A stretch of DNA of 64,000 nt from Streptomyces sp. CGMCC 4.7035 (GTDB lineage: Bacteria; Actinomycetota; Actinomycetes; Streptomycetales; Streptomycetaceae): positions 4,836,001 through 4,900,000 of the forward strand of contig NZ_CP134053.1 in the NCBI RefSeq assembly GCF_031583065.1. Reading direction: 5' to 3'. Of the stretch, positions 25,835 to 41,862 are shown piece by piece (the stretch's first letter is position 1; the number at the start of each line of letters is the position of its first letter). The notes below the pieces were generated by a model. The model ran no database searches. It saw only the letters and a list, made by a program, of their open reading frames with translations, and was not told the origin of the DNA. The position numbers and the translations under genes were made by a program.

Positions 25835-26809
25835 ATGTCCTGGAGGAGCCGCCATGTTTCAGCACCCGCGCCTGCCCGTTGTACCTTCGCCGCCCCGCGC
25901 CCGCCCTTTGCGCGGGTGTCGGTCGGTCCGCCGGGCATCCTCATGACCGGCGGGTCCAGCCTGCTGGCCGACCAGGCCGACGTGCGCGCGGTCCAGGGGT
26001 CTATTGAGCAGGCCATACGCCAACTCACCCCGCGGGAAGTGCGGTTCACGTGCGCGAGCGGGCGCGGCGGTCTCGACGAGACCGCTGCCCTCTTCAACAA
26101 GAAGGCCGACATCGCGGTCGTCGCGCCGGTGGCGGCACTGCGCCTGCTGCACCAATTCGGCGATCTACAGGGGCTGTTCGCGCTGGGAGTTGTTCCGCGC
26201 CGTGGGTGTCTCGTGGCCGCGGCCGACGCGGCGCTGCCGCTCGACACCGTCGCCGACCTGGCGGACCGCGCCGATCGCATGACGATCGCGACGCCCGCGG
26301 ACGACGGGGTCAGCCTTGTCGGCTTCGCCGTGCACCGGGCGCTGCGCCTGGCCGGCCTGGGCGTCGGCGGCCTCCGCTTCGTGTATGACGCGGAGCCCGC
26401 CGACTGCCTCGGCCGGTACGCCACGGGGGAGGCCGACGTCGTGATCCACGACATGATGTCCATGCCGGAATGGGAGAGGGCCGTGGCCGCGCGGCCGGTA
26501 CGGTACCTGCGCTGGGGCGATCGGGTCCTGCACGGATTCGCTCTCCAGGGCTGGCTTCCCCGCGTGGTGCGCGCAGAGCAGATTCCGCTCCTCGGAACGG
26601 ACGTGACCGCACTGGACTGCTCCGACTTCGCGGTCCTGTGCCGGGGAGACCTGGATGACGCACTCGCCCGCCTGATCGCCGAAATTCTGATCCGAGGGCG
26701 CCGCCCCGCCGAAACCGCCGAAGTGGCCCGCACGCCGCTTCCGCTGCATCCGGCGGCCGCCCGCGCCTATGCCGAACTTGTCGCCGACGTACCTCTTGGG
26801 AGCCGATGA
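25835..26809 (+). CDS. Leaderless periplasmic-binding-fold protein (TAXI/NMT1-like), paralog 1
   Basis: About 300 residues with the two-lobe binding-protein pattern: KKADIAVVAPVAALRLL (about 90-106), a hinge, GEADVVIHDMMSMPEW, then a C-terminal helical end. It resembles the solute receptors of TAXI-TRAP systems, yet there is no signal peptide and no transporter gene, so it should be cytoplasmic. It is the first gene after the IclR regulator. Start is uncertain: the only strong ribosome site (GGAGGAG, 25842-25848) precedes an ATG at 25854 in another frame, which stops after 30 codons. Translation in frame would have to begin at 25835, 25918 (GTG) or 25943. A frameshift near 25860-25930 is therefore possible. 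Role unknown; perhaps ligand sensing or delivery. Confidence 0.65.
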   Translation: MSWRSRHVSAPAPARCTFAAPRPPFARVSVGPPGILMTGGSSLLADQADVRAVQGSIEQAIRQLTPREVRFTCASGRGGLDETAALFNKKADIAVVAPVAALRLLHQFGDLQGLFALGVVPRRGCLVAAADAALPLDTVADLADRADRMTIATPADDGVSLVGFAVHRALRLAGLGVGGLRFVYDAEPADCLGRYATGEADVVIHDMMSMPEWERAVAARPVRYLRWGDRVLHGFALQGWLPRVVRAEQIPLLGTDVTALDCSDFAVLCRGDLDDALARLIAEILIRGRRPAETAEVARTPLPLHPAAARAYAELVADVPLGSR

Positions 26810-27834
26810 TGTCCGAACCCGTCCCGCCGTCCGGGACGCCTGCCGTGCGCGAGACCGAACTACTCATCGTCGGTGCGGGTCCCGCGGGGCTCTTCGCCTG
26901 CTACTACGCGGGGATGCGCGGGCTCGACGTGACCCTCCTGGACAGCCTGCCCCACCTCGGCGGTCAGGTTGCCGCGCTCTACCCCGACAAGGAGATCTTC
27001 GACGTCGCCGGCTTCCCCGCGGTCACCGGCCGTGAGTTGGTCGAGCGGCTCACGCGGCAGGCCGAGACCGCCGCACCGACCGTCGTCCTCGGTGAGGGCG
27101 CCGTCAAACTGGGCCGGCAGGACGCGAACGCGGTCATCGTCACCACCGACACGGGACGCGTCATCCGCGCGGGCGCCGTGCTGATCACCGCGGGCATCGG
27201 GCGGTTCACCCCGCGACCGCTGCCCGCCCTGGACGGGTTCACCGGGAACGGCGTGCACCACCTGGTCTCTCCGCCCCACGAGTACGCCGAGCGCGACGTG
27301 GTGATCGTCGGTGGCGGCGACAGCGCCGTCGACTGGGCCAACGCCCTTGCCCCGCACGCCCGTCAGGTGACGCTCGTCCACCGGCGACACCGCTTTCGCG
27401 CCCACGAGCACTCGGTGGCCCGGCTCATGGACTCCTCGGTTCGGATCCTCACCAACAGCGAGATCGCCGAGGTGCACGGTGTCGACTCCCTCAAGTCCGT
27501 GACCGTACGCGACTGCGGGACCCAGGTACTGCAGACGGTCGAGACCGACGTCCTGATCCCCGCCCTGGGGCACATCGCCTCGCTGGGGCCCCTCACCACC
27601 TGGGGGCTCACGATCGACAAGCAGCAGATCCACGTGGACACCGCGATGTCCACCGGCCTCGATCGCGTCTACGCCGCCGGAGACATCACCACCTACCCAG
27701 GCAAAGTCCGGCTGATGACCGTCGGATTCGGCGAGGCCGCCACCGCCGTCAACAACATCGCCGTACGCCTGCGGCCCGACGAGGACCTCTTCCCCGGCCA
27801 CTCAAGCGAACGCCCACCGATCCCGACCCCCTGA
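26806..27834 (+). CDS. Ferredoxin--NADP(+) reductase, thioredoxin-reductase type
   Basis: 342 aa flavoprotein. FAD motif GAGPAGLFACYYAG (about 24-37), NADPH motif VGGGDSAVDWANAL (about 167-180) and C-terminal AAGDITTYPGK that closes on FAD. The C-x-x-C of true thioredoxin reductases is absent, as expected for this FNR type. The ATG overlaps the previous stop (ATGATG at 26806-26811), so translation is coupled. With the ferredoxin that follows it would pass electrons from NADPH to an oxygenase, but the monooxygenase in this operon normally takes NADH directly, so the acceptor is unknown. Confidence 0.9.
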   Translation: MMSEPVPPSGTPAVRETELLIVGAGPAGLFACYYAGMRGLDVTLLDSLPHLGGQVAALYPDKEIFDVAGFPAVTGRELVERLTRQAETAAPTVVLGEGAVKLGRQDANAVIVTTDTGRVIRAGAVLITAGIGRFTPRPLPALDGFTGNGVHHLVSPPHEYAERDVVIVGGGDSAVDWANALAPHARQVTLVHRRHRFRAHEHSVARLMDSSVRILTNSEIAEVHGVDSLKSVTVRDCGTQVLQTVETDVLIPALGHIASLGPLTTWGLTIDKQQIHVDTAMSTGLDRVYAAGDITTYPGKVRLMTVGFGEAATAVNNIAVRLRPDEDLFPGHSSERPPIPTP

Positions 27835-27847
27835 AGGAGGACGCCTC

Positions 27848-28177
27848 ATGGGTTACGTGATCAACGACAAGTGCATCAACGAACTCGACGGCTCCTGCGT
27901 CGACGTGTGCCCCGTGGACTGCATCTACGAGGGCCTCACCAAGCGCTACATCAATCCCGCCGAATGCATCGACTGCGGGGCCTGCCTGCCCGAATGCCCG
28001 GTCGATGCCATCGCCGCACCGAAGAAGGCAGACCCGGTCTGGGCGAAGGACAACGCCGAGTTCTTCTCGGCGGCCCTGCCCGGCAAGGACGACCCGCTGG
28101 AGAGCCCCGGCGGCGCCTACGGCACCGGCCCCATCGGCGTGGACACCCCCCTCGTCGCCCACTGGACCAAGGAGTAA
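27848..28177 (+). CDS. 7Fe-type ferredoxin
   Basis: 109 aa electron carrier of the FdxA type. The first cluster uses Cys9, Cys17 and Cys21 (C-x7-C-x3-C, with C25 before IYEG); the second has C40-x2-C43-x2-C46-x3-C50-P. The tail (NAEFFSALP-like, SPGGAYG) is that of actinobacterial 7Fe ferredoxins. ATG at 27848 with AAGGAGG 10 bases upstream; 13 bp after the reductase gene. Partner of that reductase. Confidence 0.93.
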   Translation: MGYVINDKCINELDGSCVDVCPVDCIYEGLTKRYINPAECIDCGACLPECPVDAIAAPKKADPVWAKDNAEFFSAALPGKDDPLESPGGAYGTGPIGVDTPLVAHWTKE

Positions 28178-28179
28178 CC

Positions 28180-29364
28180 GTGCGACACATACCGCTGCTC
28201 ACCATCGGAGGCGGCATAGGGGGCATGACGACCGCCCTCGCCCTCGCCCAGGCCGGCTTCGATGCGCATATCGTCGAACAGGCACCGGAGTTCGCCGAGA
28301 TCGGCGCCGGCATCCAGCTCGCCCCGAACGCGCTGCGCATCCTCGACTCCCTCGGCGTCCTCGACGCCGTCAACGAGGTCGCGGTCCGACCGCGCAACCT
28401 GGTGTTCCTGCACGCCGACACCGGCAAGCACCTGACGACCATCGACTTCGGCACCCCCTTTCGCGAGCGCTACGGGCAGTCGTACAGCGTGCTGCACCGC
28501 GGCGACCTGCTCGACGTCCTGCTTGCCGCCTGCCGCGAGCACCCCAAGGTCACCCTGGAGAACAACCGCCAGGTCGTCGACATCGAGGAGCACGGCACCA
28601 CAGCCGTCGTCCACTTCGCCGACGGCGAGAGCTACCGCACCGACGCCCTGATCGGCGCCGACGGCCTCAAGTCCCGCGCCCGGCAACTCCTGTCGGACGA
28701 CAAGCCCGTGACGGACGCGTACGTCGCCTACCGCGGCGCACTCCCCATGGACCAGGTCGACCTCCCCGTCGAGCAGGACGACGAGATCATCTGGGTCGGC
28801 CCCGACCGGCACCTGGTGCAGTACCCGATCCGGCGCGGCGAGCTCTACAACCAGGTCGCCGTCTTCCGAAGCCCCAGCTACAGGCCCGAGATCGAGCACA
28901 CCGACCGGTGGGGCGGGCCCGACGAGCTCACCGAGGCCTTCGCCACATCCTGCGTACAGGTCCGGGAATCCGTGAAGATGTTCAACACGTCCCGGCGCTG
29001 GCCGATGTACGACCGCGAACCCCTGGACAACTGGACCCGCGGACGCGTCACCCTGCTCGGCGACGCCGCGCACCCCATGTTCCAGTACCTGGCCCAGGGT
29101 GCCTGCCAGGCCATCGAGGACGCCGACTGCCTGGCCCGCCAACTGGTCAAGCACAGCGGCGACATCGACGAGGCCTTCGCCGCCTACCAGGCGGAACGGA
29201 TCCCCCGTACCGCCCTGGTGCAGCGCGTCGCCCGCGGCTGGGGCCAGGTCTGGCACGCCCACAACGACACCCCGCTCTCGGCCCTGCGCGACCGCGTCTT
29301 CGGACGCCGCAGCCCCGACGACTTCACCGACCTTGACTGGCTGTACCAGTCGCTTGCCGTCTGA
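28180..29364 (+). CDS. FAD-dependent monooxygenase, 3-hydroxybenzoate 6-hydroxylase type
   Basis: 394 aa class A flavin monooxygenase. GGGIGGMTTALALAQAG (FAD, about 8-24), the D-G motif IGADGLKSRAR (about 159-169) and GDAAHPMFQYLAQG (about 292-305) are all intact. Together with the gentisate ring-cleavage genes downstream it most likely converts 3-hydroxybenzoate (or salicylate) to gentisate using NAD(P)H and O2. GTG start at 28180, with AAGGAG overlapping the ferredoxin stop, so the genes are coupled. Substrate choice is inferred from context. Confidence 0.9.
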   Translation: MRHIPLLTIGGGIGGMTTALALAQAGFDAHIVEQAPEFAEIGAGIQLAPNALRILDSLGVLDAVNEVAVRPRNLVFLHADTGKHLTTIDFGTPFRERYGQSYSVLHRGDLLDVLLAACREHPKVTLENNRQVVDIEEHGTTAVVHFADGESYRTDALIGADGLKSRARQLLSDDKPVTDAYVAYRGALPMDQVDLPVEQDDEIIWVGPDRHLVQYPIRRGELYNQVAVFRSPSYRPEIEHTDRWGGPDELTEAFATSCVQVRESVKMFNTSRRWPMYDREPLDNWTRGRVTLLGDAAHPMFQYLAQGACQAIEDADCLARQLVKHSGDIDEAFAAYQAERIPRTALVQRVARGWGQVWHAHNDTPLSALRDRVFGRRSPDDFTDLDWLYQSLAV

Positions 29365-29384
29365 GTCGACCCACGAGGACCCTG

Positions 29385-30080
29385 ATGAAAAACGAGATCG
29401 ACGAGACCGTCCGCGCCAGCCGAGCCCTGGCCGCCGCCGGTCTGACCGACATGGTGTGGGGCCACGCCGCCGTCCGCGACCCCGACAGTGACGGCGTGTG
29501 GATGAAGGCCTCCGGCTGGGGCTTCGAGGAGATAGAGACCGAGCGCGTCCTCCTCGTCAGCCGCGAGGGCGAGGTCCTGCACGGCGAGGGCAAGCGACAC
29601 ATCGAGTATCCGATTCACACCGAGATCATGGCCCGGCGCCCGGACGTCGGCTGTGTCGTGCACCTGCACGCGCCCGCCCTGAGCGCCTTCGCCTCGCTCG
29701 ATGTACCGCTGCGCCCCATCTCCCACGACGGCACCGTGTTCTGCGACCCCCAGGTGCCGCGCTTCACCAGGACCGGCGCACTCATCGCCACCGCGGAACT
29801 CGGTACAGCGCTCGCCGACACGCTCGGCGACGCGCCCGCCTGCCTCATGCCGCAGCACGGCGCCGTCACGGTCGGCCCCGACGCCGGGACCGCCGTGATG
29901 TACGCCGTCCTGCTGGAACGGGCCTGCCGTACGCAGCTCATGGCCATGTCTGCCGGCGGACCGAAGGTGTGGTCCGACAGCGAGGAAGCAGCATTCAAGC
30001 GCAACCAGATCTGGAACCCCACCCAGATCGACGCCGGCTGGAACTACTGGCAACGACTGTCGGAGAGGACTGAACGATGA
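29385..30080 (+). CDS. Class II aldolase/adducin family protein
   Basis: 231 aa. Zinc-site pattern of the family: Glu near residue 73 (HIEYPIH), the H-L-H pair at about 93-95 (CVVHLHAPALS) and a third His in MPQHGAVTVG (about 157). The N-terminal GHAAVRDP and KASGWGFEE motifs are also typical. Members act as fuculose/ribulose-phosphate aldolases or decarboxylases; within a gentisate operon it might handle a side-chain or ring-derived intermediate, but the reaction is not known. Overlaps the next gene by 4 bp (ATGA). Confidence 0.88.
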   Translation: MKNEIDETVRASRALAAAGLTDMVWGHAAVRDPDSDGVWMKASGWGFEEIETERVLLVSREGEVLHGEGKRHIEYPIHTEIMARRPDVGCVVHLHAPALSAFASLDVPLRPISHDGTVFCDPQVPRFTRTGALIATAELGTALADTLGDAPACLMPQHGAVTVGPDAGTAVMYAVLLERACRTQLMAMSAGGPKVWSDSEEAAFKRNQIWNPTQIDAGWNYWQRLSERTER

Positions 30081-31165
30081 GGCAGGCGTCCCCTCAGGAT
30101 GCGGGCGGAGCCGAACTCTCCTCCGCTGAGAAAGAGTTGTACGAGGACTTCAACCGGTTCGGGCTCATTCCGCTGTGGACCGAGCGCGAAGACCTCATGC
30201 CGATGACACCTGCGCCGCAGGCCGTCCCGTACATCTGGCACTGGGACGACCTGTACCCGCTGGCCGCTCGCGCCGGGGAGCTCATCCCCGTCGGGCGCGG
30301 CGGTGAGCGGCGCGCCATCTCCGTCTCCAACCCGGGCCTGCCCGGCCTCCCGTACGCGACCCCGACGCTGTGGGCGGCCATCCAGTACCTCGGCCCGAAC
30401 GAAGTCGCCCCCGCCCACCGGCACAGCCAGAACGCCTTCCGCTTCGTCCTCGAGGGCGAAGGCGTGTGGACCGTCGTCGACGGCGACCCGGTGGCCATGC
30501 GCCGAGGCGACCTCCTGCTCACGCCGGGATGGCAGTTTCACGGACATCACAACCCACATCCGAAGCCGATGGCCTGGCTGGACGGCCTGGACATCCCGTT
30601 CGTCTCCGCCACCGACACGGGCTTCTTCGAGTTCGGTGAGGACGGGGTGAGCGACCGTTCCACCCCGGATCGCTCGCGCTCCGAACGCATCTGGGGCCAT
30701 CCGGGACTGCGCCCGCTCGCTGCCGTGGCGAAGGACACCCCCAACTCGCCCTTGGCCGCCTACCGTTGGGAACACACCGACGCGGCACTGACCGCTCAGC
30801 TCGAAGTCGCCGCCGAAGGACACCCAGGCGTCCTGACGGAACCCGGCCACGCCGCCGTGCGCTTCAGCAACCCCACCACCGGGGCCGACGCTCTCACCAC
30901 CATCCGTACCGAAATGCACCGAGTCGCCGCCGCGTACCGCACCGCGCCTGTCCGCGAGACCGGTTCCAGCGTGTGGCAGGTCTTCGACGGCACCGGTGCC
31001 ATCACCCTCGACGGCCGACGCACCGACGTCGTACGCGGCGACCTCATCGCCGTGCCCTCCTGGTGCGAGGTCTCCATCGAGGCCCGCACCGACCTGGACC
31101 TCTTCCGGTTCAGCGACGCCCCCATCTTCGAACGCCTCAACCTCGCCCGCAGGGAGCAGTCATGA
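30077..31165 (+). CDS. Gentisate 1,2-dioxygenase
   Basis: 362 aa bicupin Fe(II) enzyme that opens gentisate to maleylpyruvate. The first cupin carries the metal site: AHRHSQNAFRFVLEG (H-x-H and E-type ligand region, about 114-128) and W-Q-F-H-G-H-H (about 152-158). The second cupin (VWQVFDGTG, then VPSW) lacks the full His set, as usual for this family. N-terminal EFNR-like helix and WHWDDL are conserved. Starts inside the aldolase stop, so translation is coupled. Confidence 0.93.
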   Translation: MRQASPQDAGGAELSSAEKELYEDFNRFGLIPLWTEREDLMPMTPAPQAVPYIWHWDDLYPLAARAGELIPVGRGGERRAISVSNPGLPGLPYATPTLWAAIQYLGPNEVAPAHRHSQNAFRFVLEGEGVWTVVDGDPVAMRRGDLLLTPGWQFHGHHNPHPKPMAWLDGLDIPFVSATDTGFFEFGEDGVSDRSTPDRSRSERIWGHPGLRPLAAVAKDTPNSPLAAYRWEHTDAALTAQLEVAAEGHPGVLTEPGHAAVRFSNPTTGADALTTIRTEMHRVAAAYRTAPVRETGSSVWQVFDGTGAITLDGRRTDVVRGDLIAVPSWCEVSIEARTDLDLFRFSDAPIFERLNLARREQS

Positions 31166-31998
31166 AGCTCGCCACCATCCGCACCGGCACCGGCACCGCG
31201 GCGGTCCGCGTCGATGCGACGGAGGCGGTGGAGACCGGCCACTCGGACGTCGGCGCGCTGCTCGCCGAGGAGGGCTGGCGCGAGCTCGCCGCGAACGCCG
31301 ACGGCACCCGGCACGCCCTGGACGGACTCGACTACGCGCCCGTCGTCCCCCGTCCGCAGAAGATCTTCTGCGTGGGCCTCAACTACCGGACCCACATCCT
31401 GGAGATGGGCCGCGACCTGCCCCAGTACCCCACGGTCTTCGCCAAGTTCCCGGCCGTCCTGATCGGCGCGTACGACGACATCGTGCTGCCGGCGGCCTCC
31501 CAGGCCATCGACTGGGAAGGCGAGATGGCGGTCGTCATCGGGGGACGGGCCCGCAACGTCTCGGTGGAGGAGGCTGCCGGACTGGTCGCGGGCTACGCGG
31601 TCCTCAACGACGTCACCGCCCGCGACTGGCAGTACCGCACCAAGGAGTGGCTGCAGGGCAAGAACTTCGAAGCCACCACACCGTTCGGTCCGGTCCTGGT
31701 GACCTCGGACGAGGCGGACATCGGCTCGCGTCAGCTCACCACCGAGGTCGATGGCGTGACCAAGCAGCAGGCCGACACCGGCGACCTGGTCTTCGACGCG
31801 GCCGCCCTGGTGTCCTACCTGTCGACGATCATCACCCTGGAGCCCGGGGACGTCATCGCCACCGGTACCCCCGGTGGCGTCGGCCACGCTCGCACTCCCA
31901 AGGAGTACCTCGGTGACGGCGCCCTCCTCACCACCCGCATCGAAGGGCTCGGCGAGTGCCGCAACCGCTGCGTCCAGGAGAAGCCGCATGACGCGTGA
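31162..31998 (+). CDS. Fumarylpyruvate hydrolase (FAH family)
   Basis: 278 aa. C-terminal FAH domain: FCVGLNYRTHILEMG (about 74-88), the acidic metal site DWEGEMAVVIG (about 115-125), the NDVTARDWQ segment and TGTPGGVG at the end. It splits fumarylpyruvate to fumarate and pyruvate, the last step of the gentisate route. The ATG at 31162 overlaps the dioxygenase stop and its own 3' end overlaps the next start by 11 bp. Confidence 0.9.
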   Translation: MKLATIRTGTGTAAVRVDATEAVETGHSDVGALLAEEGWRELAANADGTRHALDGLDYAPVVPRPQKIFCVGLNYRTHILEMGRDLPQYPTVFAKFPAVLIGAYDDIVLPAASQAIDWEGEMAVVIGGRARNVSVEEAAGLVAGYAVLNDVTARDWQYRTKEWLQGKNFEATTPFGPVLVTSDEADIGSRQLTTEVDGVTKQQADTGDLVFDAAALVSYLSTIITLEPGDVIATGTPGGVGHARTPKEYLGDGALLTTRIEGLGECRNRCVQEKPHDA

Positions 31999-32725
31999 GC
32001 CCGCCCCTTTCCCGCGACTGCTCGAATGGCTCGCATCGGGTACGAGCCTGCTGCACACCCAGCTCAGCAGGGCCGACGAGGCGTGGGTGACCGGCCCGAG
32101 CACCCTGCCCGGGTGGCGGAACGCTCACTTGCTCACCCATGTCGCGCGTAACGCCGACGCCCTCACCAACCTGGTCACCTGGGCCGCCACCGGTGTCGAG
32201 ACCCCGATGTACCCACACGGCACCGAAGGGTGCCTGCGGGACATCGAGGAGGGCGCTCGACGGACGGCGCAGGTGATCCTCAAGGACGTGAAGGACAGCG
32301 CCGTCCGCCTCCAACAGGCCCTGGACGAACTGCCTGTCATCACCTTGGGGCGTACGGTGCGCACCGCTCAGGGGCGTCTCGTAGCGGCCTCGCTCATCCC
32401 TTGGCTGCGGATCCGCGAGGTGTGGATCCACCTCGTGGATCTCGGTACGGGCGTCACCTTCGAGGCCCTGCCCGAGGACCTGGCCGAGGCGCTCCTCCCC
32501 GACGTGGTCACCACCCTGGCCGGGCGCGACGGCTGCCCGGCGCTGATAGTGCCCGCCCCGGCGGGCGGGCTGCCACTGACGACCAGGCCGACCCAACCTC
32601 TTGACTCTGCGATCGAAGTGAAGGGCTCCACCGCGGAGTTGCTCGGCTGGCTCACCGGACGTACCACCGGAGACGGTCTCACCTGCTCGCCTCCGGGCCT
32701 GCCCGCGCTGCCCGCGTGGCTGTGA
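31988..32725 (+). CDS. Maleylpyruvate isomerase family, mycothiol-dependent type
   Basis: 245 aa DinB-like four-helix protein plus a C-terminal alpha/beta domain. Metal ligands fit the family: His in HLLTHVARNADAL (about 47-52) and the E-x3-H of REVWIHLVDL (about 144-148). Isomerises maleylpyruvate to fumarylpyruvate between the dioxygenase and hydrolase steps; the actinobacterial form uses mycothiol. Start ATG at 31988 lies inside the preceding gene. Confidence 0.92.
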   Translation: MTREPAPFPRLLEWLASGTSLLHTQLSRADEAWVTGPSTLPGWRNAHLLTHVARNADALTNLVTWAATGVETPMYPHGTEGCLRDIEEGARRTAQVILKDVKDSAVRLQQALDELPVITLGRTVRTAQGRLVAASLIPWLRIREVWIHLVDLGTGVTFEALPEDLAEALLPDVVTTLAGRDGCPALIVPAPAGGLPLTTRPTQPLDSAIEVKGSTAELLGWLTGRTTGDGLTCSPPGLPALPAWL

Positions 32726-32780
32726 CGCGGACAGCGAAGTCGGCCGCCCACCCATATTGATGACGCACATGGAGCACACT

Positions 32781-33431
32781 ATGAAGATCACTCACTACGG
32801 ACACGCGTGTGTCCTGGTCGAGATCGAGCGGGAGGACCGCACCGCCCGACTGCTCTTCGACCCCGGCACGTACTCGGTCGGCTTCGAGAACCTGCGCGAT
32901 GTCGACGCCGTACTCCTCACTCACGAGCACCCTGACCACGTCGACATCGAGCGCCTCGGACCGCTGCTCGAAGCGAACCCGGCAGCCCGGGTGATCGCGG
33001 ACCCGGGAAGCGGTAAGCACCTCGGAGAAGCAGGACTGCGGCACGAGACCGTCGGCAAGGGCGACAGCGTGACGATCGCCGGGGTACCGATCCAGGCGCT
33101 GGCCGGCGACCACGCGGTCATTCATCCTCAACTGCCGTGCATCCACAACAACGGCTACCTGGTCGACGAACGGCTCCTCCACCCCGGTGACGCCTTCGTC
33201 GTTCCGCAGCAGCCGGTGGATGTGCTGCTGCTGCCGACCGGAGGCCCGTGGATGAAGGCGAGCGAGGCGATCGACTATCTGCGGGCCGTGGCGCCTCGCA
33301 TTGCGCTCCCCATCCATCAGGCGGGACTTGCCACCGTCCACCAACAGCTCCACCTGCACCTGTTCCGGAATCTGGCGCCGGAGCAGAGCACCGTGCAAGT
33401 TCTGGATCACGGGACGGCGACCGCCGTCTGA
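32781..33431 (+). CDS. MBL fold metallo-hydrolase (UPF0173-like)
   Basis: 216 aa cytoplasmic hydrolase. Metal motif T-H-E-H-P-D-H-V-D (H-x-H-x-D-H) at about 44-52, with later His/Asp in GDHAVIH and HPGDAFV completing a two-metal site. Length and sequence order are those of short UPF0173-type proteins. ATG at 32781 has GGAG seven bases upstream; starts at 32769 or a TTG at 32757 are possible. It follows the gentisate genes by 55 bp and is last before a bidirectional terminator; its pathway role is unknown. Confidence 0.88.
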   Translation: MKITHYGHACVLVEIEREDRTARLLFDPGTYSVGFENLRDVDAVLLTHEHPDHVDIERLGPLLEANPAARVIADPGSGKHLGEAGLRHETVGKGDSVTIAGVPIQALAGDHAVIHPQLPCIHNNGYLVDERLLHPGDAFVVPQQPVDVLLLPTGGPWMKASEAIDYLRAVAPRIALPIHQAGLATVHQQLHLHLFRNLAPEQSTVQVLDHGTATAV

Positions 33432-33593: not shown

Positions 33594-33614
33594 CGCGCTC
33601 AAGCCGCTCGTGGA

Positions 33615-34247: not shown

Positions 34248-34771
34248 GTGAAGAGCTTTATTGTCGTCAAGGGCGCCCGCCAGCACAACCTCCGTGACAT
34301 ATCCCCAGAGTTGCCGAGTGGTCACTAATCGTAATCGCAGGTGTTTCCGGTTCCGGGAAGTCAAGCCTGGCGTTCCACACCTTTTCCGCCGAGGGGTAGC
34401 GGCGCTATGTCGAATCAATTTCCTCGCATGCCCGGTAATTCCTGGGTGGCCTTGACAAGCCGGATGTCGACGTGATCGAAGGATTGTGTCCGGCAGTCGC
34501 GATCGACCAGAAGTCCTCGAGCCGCAATCCCCGCTCGACCGTCGGCGCTCTCACCGAGGTCCACGACTACCTGCGACTACTGGACGCCCGGGTCGGTCGT
34601 CCTGATCGAGCAATCTCGACGTCATCAAGACCGTCGACCGGCCGATCGGTATGGGTCGGAAGGCGGGCACCCCGGCGGCGCGTTGATCGCCCATGGCACG
34701 CCCGAGGACGTGGCGTCCCAACCCGACTCGTACACCGATCAGTTCCTCTGCGACATCCTGAAGGTGAAGTG
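34248..34771 (+). pseudogene. UvrA-like ABC protein reduced to its two ends
   Basis: GTG at 34248 starts VKSFIVVKGARQHNLRDIS, then after a shift VIAGVSGSGKSSLAFHTF (Walker A), a stop within [25 protein letters not shown] and [21 protein letters not shown], all of which match the first ~130 residues of UvrA-type excinuclease/self-resistance proteins. Sequence then jumps to [20 protein letters not shown] and a short tail, the extreme C-terminus. About 550 residues between are gone. It ends 2 bp before the sigma-factor start. Confidence 0.85.
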
Positions 34772-34773
34772 AC

Positions 34774-35793
34774 ATGAGCGTGGCCATCGGCGCCGAAGCG
34801 CCGACACAGTCCCAGGCGGGGTTCCTCCTCGCGGATGACGACGCGGACGCCCCTGCTCCGCGGCTCACCACGGCGGGCGCCAGCATCGACCAGGTGCACG
34901 ACTACCTGAAGCTCATCGGCCGGGTGAAGCTGCTGACCGCCGAGCAGGAGGTGGAACTCGGGAAGCGGATCGAGGCCGGTCTGTACGCCGGCCACAAACT
35001 CGACGAAGAGCCGGACCTGTCCCCGGAGTTCCGGCGGGAACTTCGGCTCCTCGTCGAGGACGGACACGGCGCGAAGGCGCACCTGGTGGAGGCGAACCTC
35101 CGCCTGGTCGTCTCCATCGTCAAGCGGTACACCGGCCGCGGACTGCTGTTCCTGGATCTGATCCAGGAGGGCAACACCGGACTGATCCGGGCCGTCGAGA
35201 AGTTCGACTACGCCAAGGGCTTCAAGTTCTCGACGTACGCCACCTGGTGGATCCGGCAGGCCGTCACCCGGGCCCTGGCCGACCAGGGCCGCACGATCCG
35301 GATCCCGGTCCACATGGTGGAGCTCATCAACCGGGTGGCGAAGGCACGGCGCGAACTGCTCCAGGAACACGGCGTCGAACCCGAGCCCGAGGTGCTGGCG
35401 GAGATCTGCGGCGTCCCGGCACAGCAGATCCCCGAGATCCAGGGATACGACAAGGAACCGATCTCCCTGCACACCGTCCTGGGCGACGACGGCAGCGCCG
35501 AGATCGGCGACCTGATCGAGGACGCGGACAGCGTCAGCCCCTGGGAGAGCGTCCTGTACTCCCAACTGCAGGACGCCTTGCGCGATACCCTCGCAGGGCT
35601 GAGCGCCCGGGAATCCGGCGTCATCATCCGCCGCTACGGCCTGGACGGCAGCCACCCGCAGACGCTGGAGGAGATCGGCCAGGTGTACGGCGTCACCCGC
35701 GAGCGCATCCGCCAGATCGCGGCCAATACGATGTCCAAGCTCCAGCATCCCTCGCGACGCAACACGTTGAGCGAGTTCCTCGACCTCACGTGA
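34774..35793 (+). CDS. RNA polymerase sigma factor, HrdB/SigA-like (group 2 type)
   Basis: 339 aa. Region 1.2 ([22 protein letters not shown], about 32-53), region 2 ([18 protein letters not shown] to [14 protein letters not shown], about 108-168), region 3 (about 180-250) and region 4 with the recognition helix-turn-helix ([20 protein letters not shown], about 300-320). The long N-terminal extension of HrdB is absent, as in HrdA/HrdC/HrdD-type factors. ATG at 34774 follows the UvrA-like remnant. Intact; promoter specificity is probably close to housekeeping. Confidence 0.95.
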
Positions 35794-35825
35794 AGCGCGC
35801 ATCCGCGAGGCTTCGGACGTCTCTG

Positions 35826-35852
35826 GGCGCTGTCCCGCAGCGGGACAGCGCC
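35826..35852 (+). terminator. Terminator of the sigma-factor gene
   Basis: 13-bp arms (ggcgctgtcccgc / gcgggacagcgcc) separated by a single base, 33 bp beyond the stop codon. Confidence 0.8.
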
Positions 35853-35876
35853 AAGGCGAGTCGGCCGCCGTACGCA

Positions 35877-36133
35877 TCAGCCCGACAGCGCCTCGTCCGG
35901 CCGCTCGATGCTGGGCAGCGCCAGGGCGAGCATCATGCCGACGCCGACGAGTGCGGCGAGGACGAAGTGCGCGTTCCGGTAGCCCTCGTCGAGACAAAAG
36001 GCAGTGCCTTGGGCAACCGTCGAGTGGCGTTCGAGGACGACAAACAGGATCTGATACGTGATCACGCCCGTCGCCTGGTAGAGCGGCACCGGCACGTCAC
36101 CGAAGGCGGCGTGGCCGATCATCGCCTGCTGGG
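35877..36133 (-). pseudogene. Downstream part of a broken gene, ending like an MFS permease
   Basis: Minus-strand frame of about 80 codons with a terminal hydrophobic helix (FVLAALVGVGMMLALALPS) and acidic tail resembling an MFS C-terminus, preceded by soluble-looking sequence (IGHAAFGDVPVPLYQATG) from another source. The ISAs1 element at 36144 interrupts it; the other flank continues at 37485. It may be a chimera of two older fragments. Confidence 0.4.
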
Positions 36134-36143
36134 GGGGCAGAGC
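36134..36143. repeat. Left 10-bp target-site duplication (ggggcagagc)
   Basis: Identical to 37475-37484 on the other side of the ISAs1 element. Confidence 0.85.
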
Positions 36144-37474
36144 CAGGGCGGTTTCAAAGTCTTGTGGATCAAGGATCCGTGCTGGTCACGGCATCATGAC
36201 GATGGGGTCGCGGGCCGCCACGCATGCAACGAAGCTCCGGTTGATGCCGGTGACCTACCAAGTCGCCTGTATCGCCCGGAGCTTCGATGTGTCGTCAGTC
36301 TGCCACCGTGTGTCTGGTCAAGTCGCCCTCGCGTCAGCACGGCGTGATCGGCGACCTGCCGTCCCGGCTGGCGACCTTGCCCGATCCCCGTGACCGGCGC
36401 GGAAGGCGTCACCCGTTCGTGAGCGTGCTGCTGACGGCCTGCTCCGCCGTCATGTGTGGGGCCCGGTCCTTCGCGGCGATCGGGCAGTGGGCGCGAAACG
36501 CTCCGCAGGACACCCTGGCCCGGCTCGGCGCCCGGACGGTGTCCGCCTTCACCGTGTGCGTCGCGCCGAGCACGGCGACGATCCGCCGGATCATCAACCG
36601 AGTCTGCCCAGGTGGCCTCGCCGACCTGCTGGGAAGCGACCCGTCCGGCGCCGACACCCTGGCCGTGGACGGCAAAAGCGCCCGTGGCTCCCGCCACGGT
36701 GACACCCCAGCCGCGCATCTGCTCGCCGCCATGACCGGTGGCGGACTGACCGTCACGCAGTTGCGAGTCCCGGACAAGACGAATGAAATCACCTGCTTCG
36801 CCAGCCTGTTGGCCCCGTTCGACCTGACCGGGGTGACCGTGACGGCCGATGCCCTGCACGCCCAGCGCGGCCACGCCCGCTTCCTCGTCGAGGAGAAGAA
36901 GGCGCACTACGCGCTGTGCGTGAAGAAGAACCAGGCCGGTCTCTACGAGCGGCTGCACATGCTGCCCTGGAAGGAGGTGACCGCGAAGTTCTACGACCGC
37001 ACCGAGGGGCACGGCCGAAAGGAGACCCGCGTGGTGCAGGTCCTGACCGTCGATGACCTCGACTTCCCGCACGCCACACAGGTCGCCCGGGTCGTACGCC
37101 ACCGCACCTGCCTGAAGACCGGCAGGCGCAGCCGCGAGACGGTTTACGTCATCACCGATCTGACCAGCCGGGAAGCCTCCCCACAGCGGCTCGCGAAGAT
37201 CATTCGTTCGCAGTGGGTGATCGAAAACCGGCTCCACTTCGTGAGGGACACTGCCTTCCGCGAGGACGCCTCCAAGGTGCACACCGAGCATGGCCCGGAG
37301 AACATGGCCACCTTGCGGAGCTACGCGATCAACTGCCTCCGTGCCGCCGGGCACCACAACATCGCCGCCGGACTCCGCGAGATGTCCTACGAGCCGTTCA
37401 CCCGTCCCCTGGCACTCCTCGGACTCCGCTGACCAGCACAGACGCGCGAACAGTCAGACTTTGAAACCACCCTG
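36144..37474. mobile_element. ISAs1-like insertion sequence (copy 2) with intact target duplication
   Basis: 1331 bp. Terminal inverted repeats read cagggcggtttcaaagtc at the left and cagggtggtttcaaagtc (complement) at the right, one mismatch. A 10-bp direct repeat flanks it, so the insertion is probably recent. Carries one intact transposase gene. Confidence 0.92.
36287..37432 (+). CDS. ISAs1 family transposase
   Basis: 381 aa, apparently intact. LATLPDPRDRRGRRHPF near residue 32, AVDGKSARGS (first Asp), DALHAQRGHARFLVEEK, KKNQAGLYERL and the C-terminal SQWVIENRLHFVRD with AFREDASKVHTEHGP. ATG at 36287 lies about 140 bp inside the left repeat. Related to but clearly different from the transposase at 13943. 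Confidence 0.94.
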   Translation: MCRQSATVCLVKSPSRQHGVIGDLPSRLATLPDPRDRRGRRHPFVSVLLTACSAVMCGARSFAAIGQWARNAPQDTLARLGARTVSAFTVCVAPSTATIRRIINRVCPGGLADLLGSDPSGADTLAVDGKSARGSRHGDTPAAHLLAAMTGGGLTVTQLRVPDKTNEITCFASLLAPFDLTGVTVTADALHAQRGHARFLVEEKKAHYALCVKKNQAGLYERLHMLPWKEVTAKFYDRTEGHGRKETRVVQVLTVDDLDFPHATQVARVVRHRTCLKTGRRSRETVYVITDLTSREASPQRLAKIIRSQWVIENRLHFVRDTAFREDASKVHTEHGPENMATLRSYAINCLRAAGHHNIAAGLREMSYEPFTRPLALLGLR

Positions 37475-37484
37475 GGGGCAGAGC
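37475..37484. repeat. Right 10-bp target-site duplication (ggggcagagc)
   Basis: Matches 36134-36143 exactly. Confidence 0.85.
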
Positions 37485-37657
37485 ATGTCCCGCTCGACGA
37501 TGCGGGACGGCTGATCGGAACCGATGACAGCAACGACTTCAGTAACGATCGCCACGGAAACTCCTTGTACCACTGGGGTGTTGGAGATCGAGAGGCGCGG
37601 CGTCGCCGTCTGCACGACGCGTGTGGACCACCGGCCCCTCGGGGTGGCGATCCGCAC
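37485..37657 (-). pseudogene. Upstream part of the gene interrupted by ISAs1
   Basis: Minus-strand frame with a protein-like stretch (VVQGVSVAIVTEVVAVIG, then PSRIVERDMLCP) that ends exactly at the target duplication. I do not recognise the family. Confidence 0.35.
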
Positions 37658-37688
37658 GCGGCGGTTCGCACTCGCCGGTGTCGGCCCC

Positions 37689-38231
37689 TCAGGCGGGCAC
37701 CGGACTCGACCAGCCGAACGCGGCGAGATCGATCTCGGGGTGCACGGTCTTGCAAGCGCCGCAGGTGCGAGCGGCCTCGTCGGCCGAGAACTTCGCGCAG
37801 GCCGCCGCGTAGAACCGGGACGGTGCTACGTCATTGTCATGCTCCCACTCAAGGCGGTGCAACTCCGTGCGGCACTCGGGGCAGTACCAGACCGCGCCCT
37901 GCCGACCGGCCTTGAGCGCCATGAATCGAATCACGGTGCCACCCTCGACCGGGACGATCTGGTGCGGCGTGCCGGCCGGGACATAGACGTGATCGCCGAT
38001 GTTCATCCGGAACCGGTTCACCGAGCTGTCGCGCAGCAGCACGTCGCTGCTGCCGGACAGCTGGCTCAGCACGGTGTCCTTCTCACAGATGAGGTGGAAC
38101 GGCTGCGGCAGCTCGTTGTGCGACAGGTACAGCTGGGGGTCCGTGTCCGTGGGGAGCACGGGCGCGTCCGCGTAGTTGCCGAGCTCGGGGGCGACCTTGA
38201 GCGCGTGGAGCATCCGTCGGCGGTTGATCAT
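37689..38231 (-). CDS. Cupin-type dioxygenase-like protein with C-terminal zinc motif
   Basis: 180 aa. Central cupin strands (NIGDHVYVPAGTPHQIVP, about 77-94) resemble 3-hydroxyanthranilate 3,4-dioxygenase, and two C-x-x-C pairs (CPEC about 119-122 and CGAC about 158-161) look like a rubredoxin-type zinc or iron site. Such enzymes split aromatic rings meta to a hydroxyl. It overlaps the upstream gene (ATGATCA), so the two products are made together and may form a complex. Placed in an aromatic module with an IclR regulator and a CoA transferase. Exact substrate unknown. Confidence 0.65.
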   Translation of the reverse strand: MINRRRMLHALKVAPELGNYADAPVLPTDTDPQLYLSHNELPQPFHLICEKDTVLSQLSGSSDVLLRDSSVNRFRMNIGDHVYVPAGTPHQIVPVEGGTVIRFMALKAGRQGAVWYCPECRTELHRLEWEHDNDVAPSRFYAAACAKFSADEAARTCGACKTVHPEIDLAAFGWSSPVPA

Positions 38232-38974
38232 CGTGCGGCCTCCTCGAGCGCGGGCTGCCCGGCTTCTCGCAGCGAGCGGTACGCGGCGTTGGCCGCGGTG
38301 GTCTGGGCGACCGTGCGGTGCCAGCCCCAAGGGGCGGGCGCGAACAGCCTGTTGACGTGTCCGCACTTCTCGCAGGTGCGCCCCGCGTCGGAGTTGCGGA
38401 TGTCCGCGAAGCGGGCCGAGCCGACCGCCGTCGGGAACTGATGGACGCGGTCGTCCGCGGCTCCGCCGTGCTGGGTCGGGTCGTAGCCGGGCAGGCCGGG
38501 CGGTGTCGCGTCGTACTCGTGGCGCACGATCTCCGCCTTGCACTCCTGGCAGCGGGCGATCATGGCCTCGGACTGGTCGCCCTCCTCCGCCTGGTGCTGG
38601 GTCACCACCATGAGGCCGTAGGCGCCCTCCTCCTTCTCGTCGCGGAGGTAGGAGTTGACGCCGTGCAGATTCTGCGTCGCCATGATCTGCCCGGTCGCCA
38701 TCACGGACTGGTGGGCGCCGTAGACGACGACGACCTCGTTGACGGTGTTCCAGTGGAAGAAGTGCCCGTAGTCGGCGTCCTGGCCACCGATGAGGACCGC
38801 GCCGCACGGCACGATCGCGCCGGCGTGGTCGTACGGGAACAGCGGCATCAGCTGACCGGCGGTCATGGCCATGTGCTCGTAAACGTTGGTCTTGAGGGGT
38901 TCGCGGTCGGGGTCGGGCGGAGAGATCTGCTGCGTCTCCTCCAGAAGGACCGCCCCGGTGGTGGGCTCGCTCAT
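38228..38974 (-). CDS. Cupin-like protein with two CxxC metal motifs, partner of the downstream cupin
   Basis: 248 aa. N-terminal half has a cupin-like strand pattern (DYGHFFHWNTVNEVVVVYGA, about 69-88). The second half has CQEC (about 142-145) and CEKC (about 200-203) that could bind one zinc. ATG at 38974. The stop overlaps the start of the 37689 gene by 4 bp. Sequence order parallels the smaller partner (cupin, then two CxxC pairs), so the pair may be alpha/beta subunits of one oxygenase. I do not recognise a characterised homologue. Confidence 0.6.
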   Translation of the reverse strand: MSEPTTGAVLLEETQQISPPDPDREPLKTNVYEHMAMTAGQLMPLFPYDHAGAIVPCGAVLIGGQDADYGHFFHWNTVNEVVVVYGAHQSVMATGQIMATQNLHGVNSYLRDEKEEGAYGLMVVTQHQAEEGDQSEAMIARCQECKAEIVRHEYDATPPGLPGYDPTQHGGAADDRVHQFPTAVGSARFADIRNSDAGRTCEKCGHVNRLFAPAPWGWHRTVAQTTAANAAYRSLREAGQPALEEAAR

Positions 38975-39005
38975 GGCTGCCCCTCTCTTCGAGAGTGTGT
39001 GTCGC

Positions 39006-39020
39006 TATGCGGAACAGTGG
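39006..39020. promoter_or_regulatory. IclR-type operator candidate upstream of the cupin pair
   Basis: ATGCGGAACAGTGG on the plus strand, that is CCACTGTTCCGCAT toward the cupin genes, 32-46 bp before their start. Same core as 25808-25826 and 40069-40090. Confidence 0.5.
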
Positions 39021-39147
39021 TCGGCATTCTGGTACCAAAATCCGGAGTGTGGCAAGCGCCCGACGAGAGGAAATGTGGCCGCCCCTACCTGCGGCGGACG
39101 TCGGTAGAGATGCTGAAAGCGCAGGTCACATCCGGTCTGCAAACGCC

Positions 39148-39181
39148 GACGGCCGCCCCGGAAAGATCCGGGGCGGCCGTC
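39148..39181. terminator. Terminator of the second IclR gene
   Basis: 15-bp perfect arms (gacggccgccccgga / tccggggcggccgtc) around a 4-nt loop, 22 bp downstream of the IclR stop. Confidence 0.85.
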
Positions 39182-39202
39182 GGGCGGGGGTGTGGAGGTG
39201 CG

Positions 39203-40003
39203 TCAGTCGATGCGCTCGCCCAGTTCGCGGGCGACGCGGACGGTAGCCGCGGCGGCGGAGGCGATCCACGTGCCGTCGACGCGGGACTGCGGGGCCGTCG
39301 TGGCTATGGCCGCACGTGCGCGGCCGCGCTTGTCGCGGACGACCGCCGCGACGGCGCTGACGTCCGCCTCGCTCTCGGCGTTATTGACCGCGTAACCGAG
39401 ACGCCGGACGTCGGTCAGCTGCTTGCGGAGTTCTTCGAGCGTCTGGGGGGCGCGGGCAGTGGGAGCCTGCAGGTTCTCCAAGGGGTAGCGGGCGGCGAGT
39501 TCGTCGTCGCCGAGCTCGGCGAGCAGTGCCTTGCCGGCCGCGGTCGCGTGGGCCGGGAGCGTCCAGCCGGTCCGGCTTCCGGTGCGGACGACCTGGTTGC
39601 TCTCAACGCTGTCGACGTACAGCACCTCCGCCCCACGCAAGGTCGCGAGGTGAACGGTTTCGTCGGTCTCGTCGCGCAGACGGGTCAGGGCGCTGTGCGC
39701 CAGTGCCCGGATATCCATGTTCGCGACGACCGACAGGCCGATGTCGACGAGCGCGGGCCCCGGCTTGTACGCGCGCGAGAAGTCGTCCTGAACCACGAAC
39801 CGGTGATGGCAGAGCGTGGCCAGCATGCGGTGGACCGTGGAACGGGACAGGCCCATGTCGCGGGCCACTTGATTGACCCGGATCATCTCGTGGGCCTCGA
39901 AAAGCCGCAGCAGTCGCAGCACGTTGTCGACGGCCCCGATCAGGCCGGCCGGGCGGCTCTCGGTGCCGGACTCGGCGCTGCTGGTCCCCGTTTTTTGCTC
40001 CAC
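39203..40003 (-). CDS. IclR family regulator of the second aromatic module
   Basis: About 266 aa. Winged helix GAVDNVLRLLRLFEAHE and GLSRSTVHRMLATL near the N-terminus, then the effector domain (GWTLPAHATAAGKALLAEL). Strong similarity over its whole length to the IclR at 24943. The start is uncertain: GTG at 40003 (VEQKTG) or 40012; neither has a good ribosome site, and the ATG at 40090 would place the operator inside the gene. Divergent from the DUF4242-like gene. Confidence 0.92.
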   Translation of the reverse strand: MEQKTGTSSAESGTESRPAGLIGAVDNVLRLLRLFEAHEMIRVNQVARDMGLSRSTVHRMLATLCHHRFVVQDDFSRAYKPGPALVDIGLSVVANMDIRALAHSALTRLRDETDETVHLATLRGAEVLYVDSVESNQVVRTGSRTGWTLPAHATAAGKALLAELGDDELAARYPLENLQAPTARAPQTLEELRKQLTDVRRLGYAVNNAESEADVSAVAAVVRDKRGRARAAIATTAPQSRVDGTWIASAAAATVRVARELGERID

Positions 40004-40068
40004 GGAGAGCACAGTAGCGCAGAGATTTCCACCCTCCACGCCCTTGCTATTAAGTTCCAGTAGACGGG

Positions 40069-40090
40069 ACAGTGTTCTGTATCGTGACAC
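40069..40090. promoter_or_regulatory. IclR-type operator candidate (ACAGTGTTCTGTATCGTGAC...)
   Basis: Lies in the divergent region between IclR 2 and the 40116 gene. Shares CAGTGTTC(C/T)G(C/T)AT with 25808-25826, including its position relative to the regulator. Confidence 0.55.
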
Positions 40091-40115
40091 GTTTCAAGGA
40101 TGAGGGAGTCTTGCC

Positions 40116-40397
40116 ATGCCTCTGTACGTGAGCCTTCACCAGGCCCCGGGCCTGTCGGTCGAGGAGATCGCGGGAAACGCGCCGGAAGTCGCCCAGCAGG
40201 TCCACGCGACCTTCCGGCAGCTGTATGTGAACACCGACTCCGGGTTCATCGTCTCGGTCTACGAGGCCGCCGGCGCCAAGGCCCTGGAGGAGGAGTTCGA
40301 GCGGATCGGCTTCCCCTTCGACTCCATCAACGAGGTCGACTTCACCCAGAACGCCGCGGAGCTGGCCGAGATGGTGGGGCAGAGCGACCATGTCTGA
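40116..40397 (+). CDS. Small DUF4242-like protein
   Basis: 93 aa ferredoxin-fold-type small protein (MPLYVSLHQAPGLSVEEI, then YVNTDSGFIVSVYEAAGAKA and an A-A-E-R-I-G-F-P helix). The beta-alpha-beta pattern resembles DUF4242, whose characterised relatives bind nickel, but the metal His residues are few here, so function is open. First gene after the divergent IclR; overlaps the next start by 8 bp, so translation is coupled to the binding-protein paralog. Confidence 0.6.
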   Translation: MPLYVSLHQAPGLSVEEIAGNAPEVAQQVHATFRQLYVNTDSGFIVSVYEAAGAKALEEEFERIGFPFDSINEVDFTQNAAELAEMVGQSDHV

Positions 40398-41244
40398 GGC
40401 ACCTGTTCTGAAGCACCCGATCACCCTCCAGTTCCGCGGTGACTGGGGCCAGGCCAACCTCCCACCGGATCTGCGGCTGGCTGGCCCAGGAGATCGGCGA
40501 CCGCGCCCCCGAGGGATCCCGCTTCGGCATCTGGAACGGCCGCGGCGGCATCGACCAGATCGAGGCGCTGCTCGCCGGTGAGGTGGACATCGCCCTCGTC
40601 ACGCCGACCGCGGCCGTGCAGATGCTGGACCGTGCGGGGAAGACGAAGGGACTGGCCTCGCTCGGCGTGGTCGGACAGCGCGACCGCCTGGTCGTCGCGG
40701 TCGACGCGGCCCTGCCGGTCAGCACGGTGGCCGACCTCGCCTCCATCACCGACCAGTTGACCGTGGCGACCTCGCAGGACGACGGCGTGAACCTCATCGG
40801 TCTCGCCGCCCACAAAGCGCTGCGCATCGCCGGAGTCGACCCCGAGAAGCTGACGTTCTTCTACGACGAGCGTCCGTTCCCGGCTCTTGACCACTTCATC
40901 GCGGGCAAGTCGAACGTCCTCATCCACGAAGCCGTCATGACGCCGCGCTGGCAGCAGCTGGACCGCGTACGCCCGGTCAAGTACCTGCCGTGGGGCGACG
41001 AGGTCCTGCAGGCCTTCGCGGCCGAGGGATGGCAGGACGCGGTGGTGGAAGCGGGCTACTTCCCCGGCCTGACCGAGGACCTGCGCACGCTCGACTTCTC
41101 CGACTTCGCGGTGCTGTGCCGACAGGACATGGACGACGACGTCGCCGCGCTCGTCACCTGGTGCATGGTGATGACCCGCCGGGCCTTGGAGGCGCAGTAC
41201 GCACACCTGCCGGCCGACCACTCGCCGGTCACCTACCCACGGCC
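40390..41244 (+). pseudogene. Leaderless periplasmic-binding-fold protein, paralog 2, frameshifted
   Basis: ATG at 40390 (MSEAPVLKHPITLQFRGDWG) leaves frame near 40463, where CTCCCACC probably had one C less; the next frame restores RICGWLAQEIGDRAPEG and continues through GEVDIALVTPTAAVQML, DDGVNLIGLAAHKAL and LDFSDFAVLCRQDMDD. It aligns with the 25835 protein over its length, including the absence of a signal peptide. After HLPADHSPVTYP it fuses to MhpA-like sequence, so the last ~20 residues are also lost. Confidence 0.8.
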
Positions 41245-41862
41245 GCCTCGCCCGCGCTCCTGGACACATACACCAGTGAGCGGCGCGAGCATGTCCAGCA
41301 CGCCATCGGCATCTCGAGGGCGCTCGGCCAGGTCATCTGCGTACCGGACGAGGCGGAGGCGACTGCGCGGGACGCTCGTATGATCGCCACCGGCGGCGAC
41401 CCGGCCCGTGTGTTGCCGCCCACTCCGCCGCCGGTCCTTGGCGACGGCGTCCTGCAACGGGCGTCGGACGGTGGCCCGCGCCCCGACGTCGGCCACATCA
41501 CCCCGCAGTACCGCATCCGCCACAACGGCGAGACCGGGCTGCTCGACGACATCACGGGTGGCGGCTTCGTCGTCCTGGCGGACGGGGACGCGGCCTTGAG
41601 CGAACTGGACTCCGCAGACCGGGAGTTCCTCATGCGCATCGGTGCAACCGTGGTTCCGCTCCACTCACCCGGCACGCCTGACGTGGCGTACCTCGACGTG
41701 GACGACGCCTACCTGCCGCACATGCGCGAGCACGCCCACGTCGCTGCCGTCATCCGCCCCGACTTATACCTCTTCGGTGCCGCGGCCACCGCGCTCGAAC
41801 TGCACCACTTGATCGGCCAGCTGAGGGAGCGGCTCCTGCTGACGCCGTCCGTCGCCACCTGA
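41245..41862 (+). pseudogene. MhpA-like FAD monooxygenase, C-terminal fragment
   Basis: About 205 codons matching the substrate-side and thioredoxin-like C-terminal part of 3-(3-hydroxyphenyl)propionate hydroxylase-type enzymes (LLDTYTSERREHVQHAIG, GRVICV-like RALGQVICVPDE, RPDLYLFGAA). The N-terminal FAD domain (~330 residues) has been removed by the deletion that fused it to the binding-protein paralog. The reading frame is open but no start or cofactor site remains. Confidence 0.85.

Follow-up and report, generated by a model that had tools for sequence, protein, structure and literature searches.

The window analysed here (the whole 64,000-nucleotide stretch, positions 4836001–4900000 of the 8.09 Mb genome of Streptomyces sp. 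CGMCC 4.7035) carries, at two places, genes for leaderless proteins related to the TAXI-type solute receptors of TRAP transporters. A gene set that is complete at a single locus in Streptomyces xylophagus (L014) is divided in the window between these two places, each with its own IclR-family regulator and its own family member. Among the genes found near relatives of the two proteins, the most regular and specific partner of the family is a cupin, c3 or c20, which a sequence-only reading of the window had missed. We tentatively propose that these genes form an undescribed catabolic module, and that its presumably cytosolic binding-protein-fold member would most likely be an enzyme acting beside the cupin. 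Genes were called with a codon-usage script, which overlooked some short genes, and were then grouped by BLAST into groups labelled c0, c3 and so on. The labels P450-like (c19), transposase-like and, outside L014, GntR were given by BLAST group or by eye only, as was zinc dehydrogenase in loci other than L024. The genes of the window are as follows.

24943..25749, minus strand: IclR-family regulator, divergent from the B-type gene
25943..26809, plus strand: B-type leaderless TAXI/NMT1-like binding-protein-fold protein, 288 residues, without the motif GDWGxANxHR; start set from relatives
26806..27834, plus strand: c10, thioredoxin-reductase-like FAD oxidoreductase, a putative ferredoxin reductase
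27848..28177, plus strand: c7, ferredoxin, of the 7Fe type as read from cysteine motifs alone
28180..29364, plus strand: c8, 3-hydroxybenzoate 6-hydroxylase-like FAD monooxygenase (28282–29364 searched; 346.8 bits, cut-off 459)
29385..30080, plus strand: c4, class II aldolase-family protein (best family 118 bits, cut-off 255)
30077..31165, plus strand: c9, gentisate 1,2-dioxygenase-like cupin (262 bits, cut-off 442.1)
31162..31998, plus strand: c0, fumarylacetoacetate hydrolase-family protein, under every cut-off shown
31988..32725, plus strand: c18, maleylpyruvate isomerase-family mycothiol-dependent enzyme (88.6 bits, cut-off 50)
37689..38231, minus strand: c5, 3-hydroxyanthranilate-dioxygenase-like cupin, first metal motif lost, Cys4 kept
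38228..38974, minus strand: c3, predicted cupin without a match in Pfam or NCBIfam; invariant H-x-N-x3-E, later H and Cys4 site
39203..40012, minus strand: second IclR-family regulator
40116..40397, plus strand: c6, SCO4226-like small protein of 93 residues, directly upstream of the A-type gene (PF14026, 34 bits, cut-off 28.5)
40390..41242, plus strand: A-type binding-protein-fold gene, broken, with a frame break near its start and its 3' end missing
41245..41862, plus strand: C-terminal remnant of an MhpA-like FAD monooxygenase, fused to the broken A-type gene

Both family genes differ from their first description. The B-type gene had been taken to start at 25835; the start lies near 25943, because the database reading for this genome has 288 residues and relatives start at or near that point. 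The A-type gene had been read as a protein at 40390–41244, a span that holds two internal stops. Its frame shifts somewhere from about 40440 to 40470, in the first 25 or so codons, and comparison with the 320-residue A-type homologues P0002 and P0006, which have uninterrupted reading frames, shows a loss of about 37 residues at the C-terminus. The sequence that follows, 41245–41847, encodes the C-terminal part of an MhpA-like protein, 70% identical to residues 331–535 of the 555-residue L014 protein, and the 3' loss holds even if the frame change is a sequencing error. P0006 is an intact A-type copy from the same genome, at 4941444–4942400, 65 kb away. Each family gene had been taken to head, or nearly head, its unit; the second unit starts with the SCO4226-like gene at 40116–40397 instead of the family gene. 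Among the other enzymes, the aldolase-family protein c4 is weakly similar to PhtC, a 3,4-dihydroxyphthalate decarboxylase (86.9 bits, cut-off 200). Two transposase-like genes, recognized by eye, lie at 13961–15124 and 36308–37432 of the window; they are of one family, 45% identical, and the second sits between the two loci.

The two window proteins are paralogs, with 45% identity over 252 residues. The binding-protein fold ascribed to both was confirmed by sequence for the second protein, which scored 30.6 bits against the NMT1_3 cut-off of 27; the first fell below it at 10.7 bits. The curated TAXI model TIGR02122 was absent among the matches at E 0.1 for either protein, and its cut-off of 84.35 was not reached in Phaeobacter (64.4 bits) or L107 (34 bits). 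A profile of the family did match TAXI proteins of solved structure, covering most of their length (best 4ddd, E 5.2e-11), which places the family among the kin of TAXI proteins. For the second, or A-type, protein 475 relatives were found, the best 120 of which were listed, and for the first, or B-type, protein there were 84 among 8000 scored candidates. A-type proteins are mostly of 314–340 residues and carry GDWGxANxHR near the N-terminus; B-type proteins are of about 286–303 residues and lack this motif.

The sequence-only reading had found no signal peptide in either window protein, and the family as a whole appears to lack one. In a hydropathy scan none of 58 members had a leader-like N-terminus (maximum 1.31), while the reference, a TAXI receptor beside a TRAP permease in Phaeobacter, scored 2.32. 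Remoter relatives in L107, L115 and Aminobacter were also leaderless by eye. The lack of a permease partner was likewise upheld: the only TRAP permease homologue in the searched loci was the query itself, a Phaeobacter permease that has its own receptor. On plasmid pGal_C110 of Phaeobacter gallaeciensis (L045, NC_023139.1 48000–80000) there are two leaderless family members, cupin modules of both types and a gentisate-type branch; apart from the family members, the plasmid holds a leader-bearing TAXI receptor with a TRAP permease. Permeases of other types were sought by counting membrane segments, and a gene with at least five segments was found within 5 kb of 11 of 38 family genes. Some 2 to 5 kb away from a remote leaderless family member, L107:3257–6669 holds four adjacent ABC-transporter-like genes, two of them with six hydrophobic segments. 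Given the leader scan and the lack of a nearby TRAP permease homologue, a transport role was rejected. It is very improbable that these are ordinary solute-binding proteins, with leaders lost or mis-called, in decaying clusters. The broken second copy in the window would fit decay, and several sources label relatives “TAXI family TRAP transporter solute-binding subunit”, but no leader-like stretch was seen in the scanned members, the ratio of non-synonymous to synonymous divergence (dN/dS) between the two genomic copies is 0.39 for the B-type gene and 0.23 for the in-frame A-type part, and operons with cupin genes recur without a TRAP permease homologue. The missing leader and TRAP permease and the contents of the operons support the earlier proposal of a cytosolic, non-transport role tied to aromatic catabolism. 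As judged from sequence, the family members would be cytosolic proteins with a TAXI-type binding-protein fold, serving a catabolic module rather than uptake.

To describe the neighbourhoods we used twenty named loci and further ones from whole genomes and plasmid records, and counted partners as profile matches within 5 kb of the 38 family genes. In the complete layout of L014 the order is c5-c3, IclR, c6, A-type gene, c10, c7, c8, c4, c9, c0, c18 and the MBL gene c12. IclR was found near 22 family genes, c3 near 21, c5 near 20, the hydrolase near 19 and the aldolase near 18; lower counts were obtained for the SCO4226-like gene (14), ferredoxin (13), the MhpA-like monooxygenase (13), zinc dehydrogenase (12), c10 (11), c20 (9), gentisate dioxygenase (9), c8 (9) and MarR (5). 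Either c3 or c20 was present in 30 of 38 cases. No partner gene is constant, and c3 is distinguished by its rarity, not by its count. In whole-class surveys, for which few candidates were scored per genome, 394 genomes yielded the family in four, c3 in two and c20 in five (one partial). Both c3 genomes carry the family, namely the window's own and a Pseudofrankia genome (G397), where the two are on two contigs; two of the five c20 genomes do so. Among 249 genomes of the order of G482, the centre of that survey, c3 was found only in G482. Of 22 genomes chosen for carrying the family, 19 have c3 and nine have c20, which is present in all three that lack c3. In the plasmid collection c3 occurred in two kinds of record, those of Phaeobacter, with the family, and Sphingobium AntQ-1. 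The window's genome has two extra c3 copies (4912112–4912753 and 4932054–4932725), each some 9 kb distant from the closest family gene.

The two IclR proteins of the window are closely related, as claimed (66% identical). The sequence-only reading had gone further and made IclR the defining feature of the layout, and this was not borne out: of the 38 family genes, 22 have IclR within 5 kb and 24 within 10 kb, and 26 have IclR or MarR within 5 kb. In L026, L028 and L030 a MarR-group gene is present instead, with no IclR within 10 kb. IclR was accordingly rejected as a constant partner. Both window places are duplicated elsewhere in the genome, at distances of 60 and 65 kb. Amino acid identity between the copies is 89–92% for the reductase, ferredoxin, hydroxylase, aldolase, gentisate dioxygenase and hydrolase. 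It is 89% for c5, 86% for c6, 85% for the A-side IclR, 82% for the in-frame A-type part, 81% for MBL, 78% for c3 and 76% for the isomerase, and falls to 67% for the B-type protein and 68% for its IclR. The dN/dS values for c3 and c5 are 0.43 and 0.10. Synonymous divergence is uneven, from 0.19 to 0.72, which makes gene conversion likely. These observations bear on the reading offered first, that the family protein is a cytosolic ligand sensor acting with IclR, or sequesters an inducer. Both window members are near an IclR gene, as are more than half of the 38, and the B-type protein and its IclR have diverged between the copies more than the six neighbouring enzymes. The last two genes of the operon, for the isomerase and MBL, have also diverged, however, and uneven gene conversion can explain the pattern; further, the family persists with a MarR-group gene in the three loci lacking IclR, and IclR has a ligand-binding domain of its own (PF01614, matched here). 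We consider a sensor role improbable.

By profile, c5 matches solved chains of 3-hydroxyanthranilate dioxygenases (best E 5.4e-9), and at 40.0 bits it does not reach the curated 3-hydroxyanthranilate 3,4-dioxygenase cut-off of 220. In 14 c5 sequences no H or E is conserved at the first metal motif, judged by what we take to be the cupin metal-ligand positions; a later H is nearly invariant, and four cysteines are invariant. The search for c3 relatives gave 134 among 8000 scored candidates; among the best 120 of these every source name shown was hypothetical or uncharacterized, and one row had an unrelated Pfam domain. H74, N76, E80, H104 and four cysteines are invariant in 15 c3 sequences. No solved relative of c3 was found by sequence at E 1, and the profile matches were at chance level (best E 0.069). 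The c3 and c5 profiles align over the C-terminal Cys4 region (97.7%). The other cupin partner, c20, is a bicupin of 330 residues that is named homogentisate 1,2-dioxygenase in Phaeobacter and goes with the zinc alcohol dehydrogenase-like gene; no solved relative was found for it, and kinship with c3 was not detected (hhalign 2.7%). In a Rhizobiales genome (L108) c5 and c3 are fused in one protein of 451 residues (L108:6664–8019). The next gene there encodes a Rieske protein and overlaps the family gene by 4 bases.

Short genes being easily overlooked by the caller, electron carriers were sought again by tblastn within 10 kb. A ferredoxin, flavodoxin, Rieske protein or reductase was found for 18 of 26 c3 genes versus 3 of 12 c20 genes; among the three, the L024 locus holds a c3 module as well, and the reductases of L041 and L118 adjoin a P450-like gene. 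The carrier is replaced from lineage to lineage: actinobacteria have a ferredoxin with a reductase, L028, L109 and Phaeobacter a flavodoxin with a reductase, L030 a flavodoxin, and L108 the Rieske protein. The L030 flavodoxin and the L108 Rieske protein were confirmed by Pfam, and the flavodoxins of L028, L109 and Phaeobacter are 47–58% identical to that of L030, the Phaeobacter gene being annotated in two pieces. In the c3/c5 form, electrons would probably come from NAD(P)H and pass by way of a reductase and an exchangeable one-electron carrier.

From these results we propose that a family member is paired with a cupin in one catabolic module, the cupin being either the c3/c5 pair or the c20 bicupin with its zinc alcohol dehydrogenase-like gene. 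In the pair, c3 would keep a 2-His-1-Glu-like motif and a Cys4 site, and c5 a Cys4 site without the first metal motif. By analogy with other cytosolic proteins of the binding-protein fold, the A-type protein may be a cofactor-free enzyme, perhaps a lyase or decarboxylase of a ring-derived carboxylate, acting just before or just after the cupin. The B-type protein, lacking the N-terminal motif, would be a diverged and probably non-catalytic partner. If each pair joined an active and a degenerate paralog, this would account for the loss of the B-type motif under some constraint as well as for the loss of the c5 metal motif with the cysteines kept in most loci. A bolder proposal, which we regard as doubtful, is that the genes encode a new multicomponent oxygenase, with catalytic c3 and degenerate c5, electrons supplied through interchangeable carriers, perhaps by way of rubredoxin-like Cys4 sites, and a cytosolic component of the binding-protein fold to bind or convert the substrate.

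Alternatively, the family protein might be a non-catalytic substrate-presenting or effector subunit that captures the substrate in the cytosol and passes it on to c3/c5 or c20. Linkage to two different types of cupin would suit such a subunit, as would the family-specific polar motif GDWGxANxHR near the A-type N-terminus and the tight packing of the family gene with a cupin or carrier gene (16 bases in L026, 11 in L027, 2 in L107, and the overlap with the Rieske gene in L108). The packing is equally tight with other catabolic genes, however, since the family gene overlaps or abuts the hydrolase gene in L030, L041, L043 and L044, the monooxygenase gene in L106 and the aldolase gene in L105. Further, no fusion of a family protein with a cupin was seen in the loci called, L020 and L109 have neither kind of cupin within 5 kb, and we know of no oxygenase with a binding-protein-fold subunit of this sort. 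The sequence-only reading had considered delivery of a ligand to the oxygenase; if so, the cupin (30 of 38) would be a better candidate for the oxygenase than the 3-hydroxybenzoate hydroxylase (9 of 38). Gene linkage does not discriminate between an enzyme and a substrate-presenting subunit; we think the latter unlikely, and rank the enzyme role as most likely, followed by the subunit and then by the IclR-linked sensor.

The enzyme role is favoured by the overlaps with catabolic genes given above and by a neighbour that was reached through c3. On the Sphingobium AntQ-1 plasmid (L122:13779–17218), c3/c5 lies between a decarboxylase homologue and a PDR/VanB reductase, which follows c5 by 4 bases. 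The upstream gene, in the place of the family gene, encodes a protein that shares 80% identity with an annotated 4,5-dihydroxyphthalate decarboxylase and matches the solved chain of this enzyme (9jp7) at E 6.5e-87; its Pfam matches are to the broad binding-protein class, and it is not of the TAXI/NMT1-like family. The degradation region of AntQ-1 is drawn at 68,745–106,725 in PMC9836352, and the c3/c5 stretch lies outside it. The annotation of two related sphingomonad clusters showed no c3/c5.

Several observations weigh against an enzyme paired with a cupin. Membership of the family in the 4,5-dihydroxyphthalate decarboxylase family was rejected (hhalign 1.4%), and a search of the AntQ-1 plasmid, confined to the plasmid, found no family gene. 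Decarboxylase clusters of Polaromonas and Salipiger also contain a PDR/VanB reductase, so that the AntQ-1 decarboxylase and reductase may serve phthalate, the reductase perhaps as a part of phthalate dioxygenase. Pooling the unrelated c3 and c20 inflates the cupin count; alone, c3 (21 of 38) and c20 (9) compare with 22 for IclR, 19 for the hydrolase and 18 for the aldolase, and the argument from specificity depends on the rarity of c3. Eight family genes lack c3 and c20 within 5 kb: those of L013, L020 and L109, two B-type genes, and the remote L113–L115. L013 is at a contig end, and the contig with c3 has 1,598 bases, containing transposase-like genes, in common with it; linkage there is likely, not proven. 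In L110, L111 and L118, c20 occurs without the family nearby. For 8 of 26 c3 genes (L015, L026, L027, L112, L122 and three in the window's genome) no scored carrier was found within 10 kb. The metal sites were taken from alignments alone. Most Cys4 cysteines have gone from the c5 portion of the fused L108 protein, whose c3 portion retains its set; this argues against a need for the c5 cysteines there.

If the proposal is correct, many proteins annotated as TRAP transporter solute-binding subunits would be cytosolic catabolic proteins, and their transport annotations would be wrong. A cupin enzyme dependent on an electron-transfer chain and on a partner of the binding-protein fold would represent a new oxygenase design. 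The gene set names candidate parts in actinobacteria and in alphaproteobacteria.

In agreement with the earlier claim that the layout is undescribed, searches of open-licence literature turned up no description of such a module; the parts are of known kinds, and their combination appears new. The family resembles TAXI TRAP receptors (TIGR02122; PF16868 NMT1_3) in its kinship over most of the length, its probable two-lobe fold and a similar C-terminal PLHPxA, but has no leader or TRAP permease, does not reach the curated model, and shows the A-type GDWGxANxHR and linkage to cupins. MqnA, MqnD and Thi5 are other cytosolic enzymes of the binding-protein fold. The 4,5-dihydroxyphthalate decarboxylase (9jp7) is leaderless by eye, falls in the same broad Pfam fold class and belongs to a catabolic gene set, yet profile comparison revealed no similarity to the family. 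Bacterial 3-hydroxyanthranilate 3,4-dioxygenase is the nearest counterpart of the cupin pair, as c5 matches its solved chains and c3 and c5 have a C-terminal Cys4 region in common; here, by contrast, there are two proteins, c5 lacks the first metal motif, and a reductase and carrier are often nearby. Finally, the ifc (isoflavone) and fde (naringenin) A-ring clusters resemble many family loci in having an MhpA/FdeE-like monooxygenase, a glyoxalase-type dioxygenase and cupins, and differ in that the available parts of their descriptions (PMC11069340, PMC8552027) name no binding-protein-fold component.

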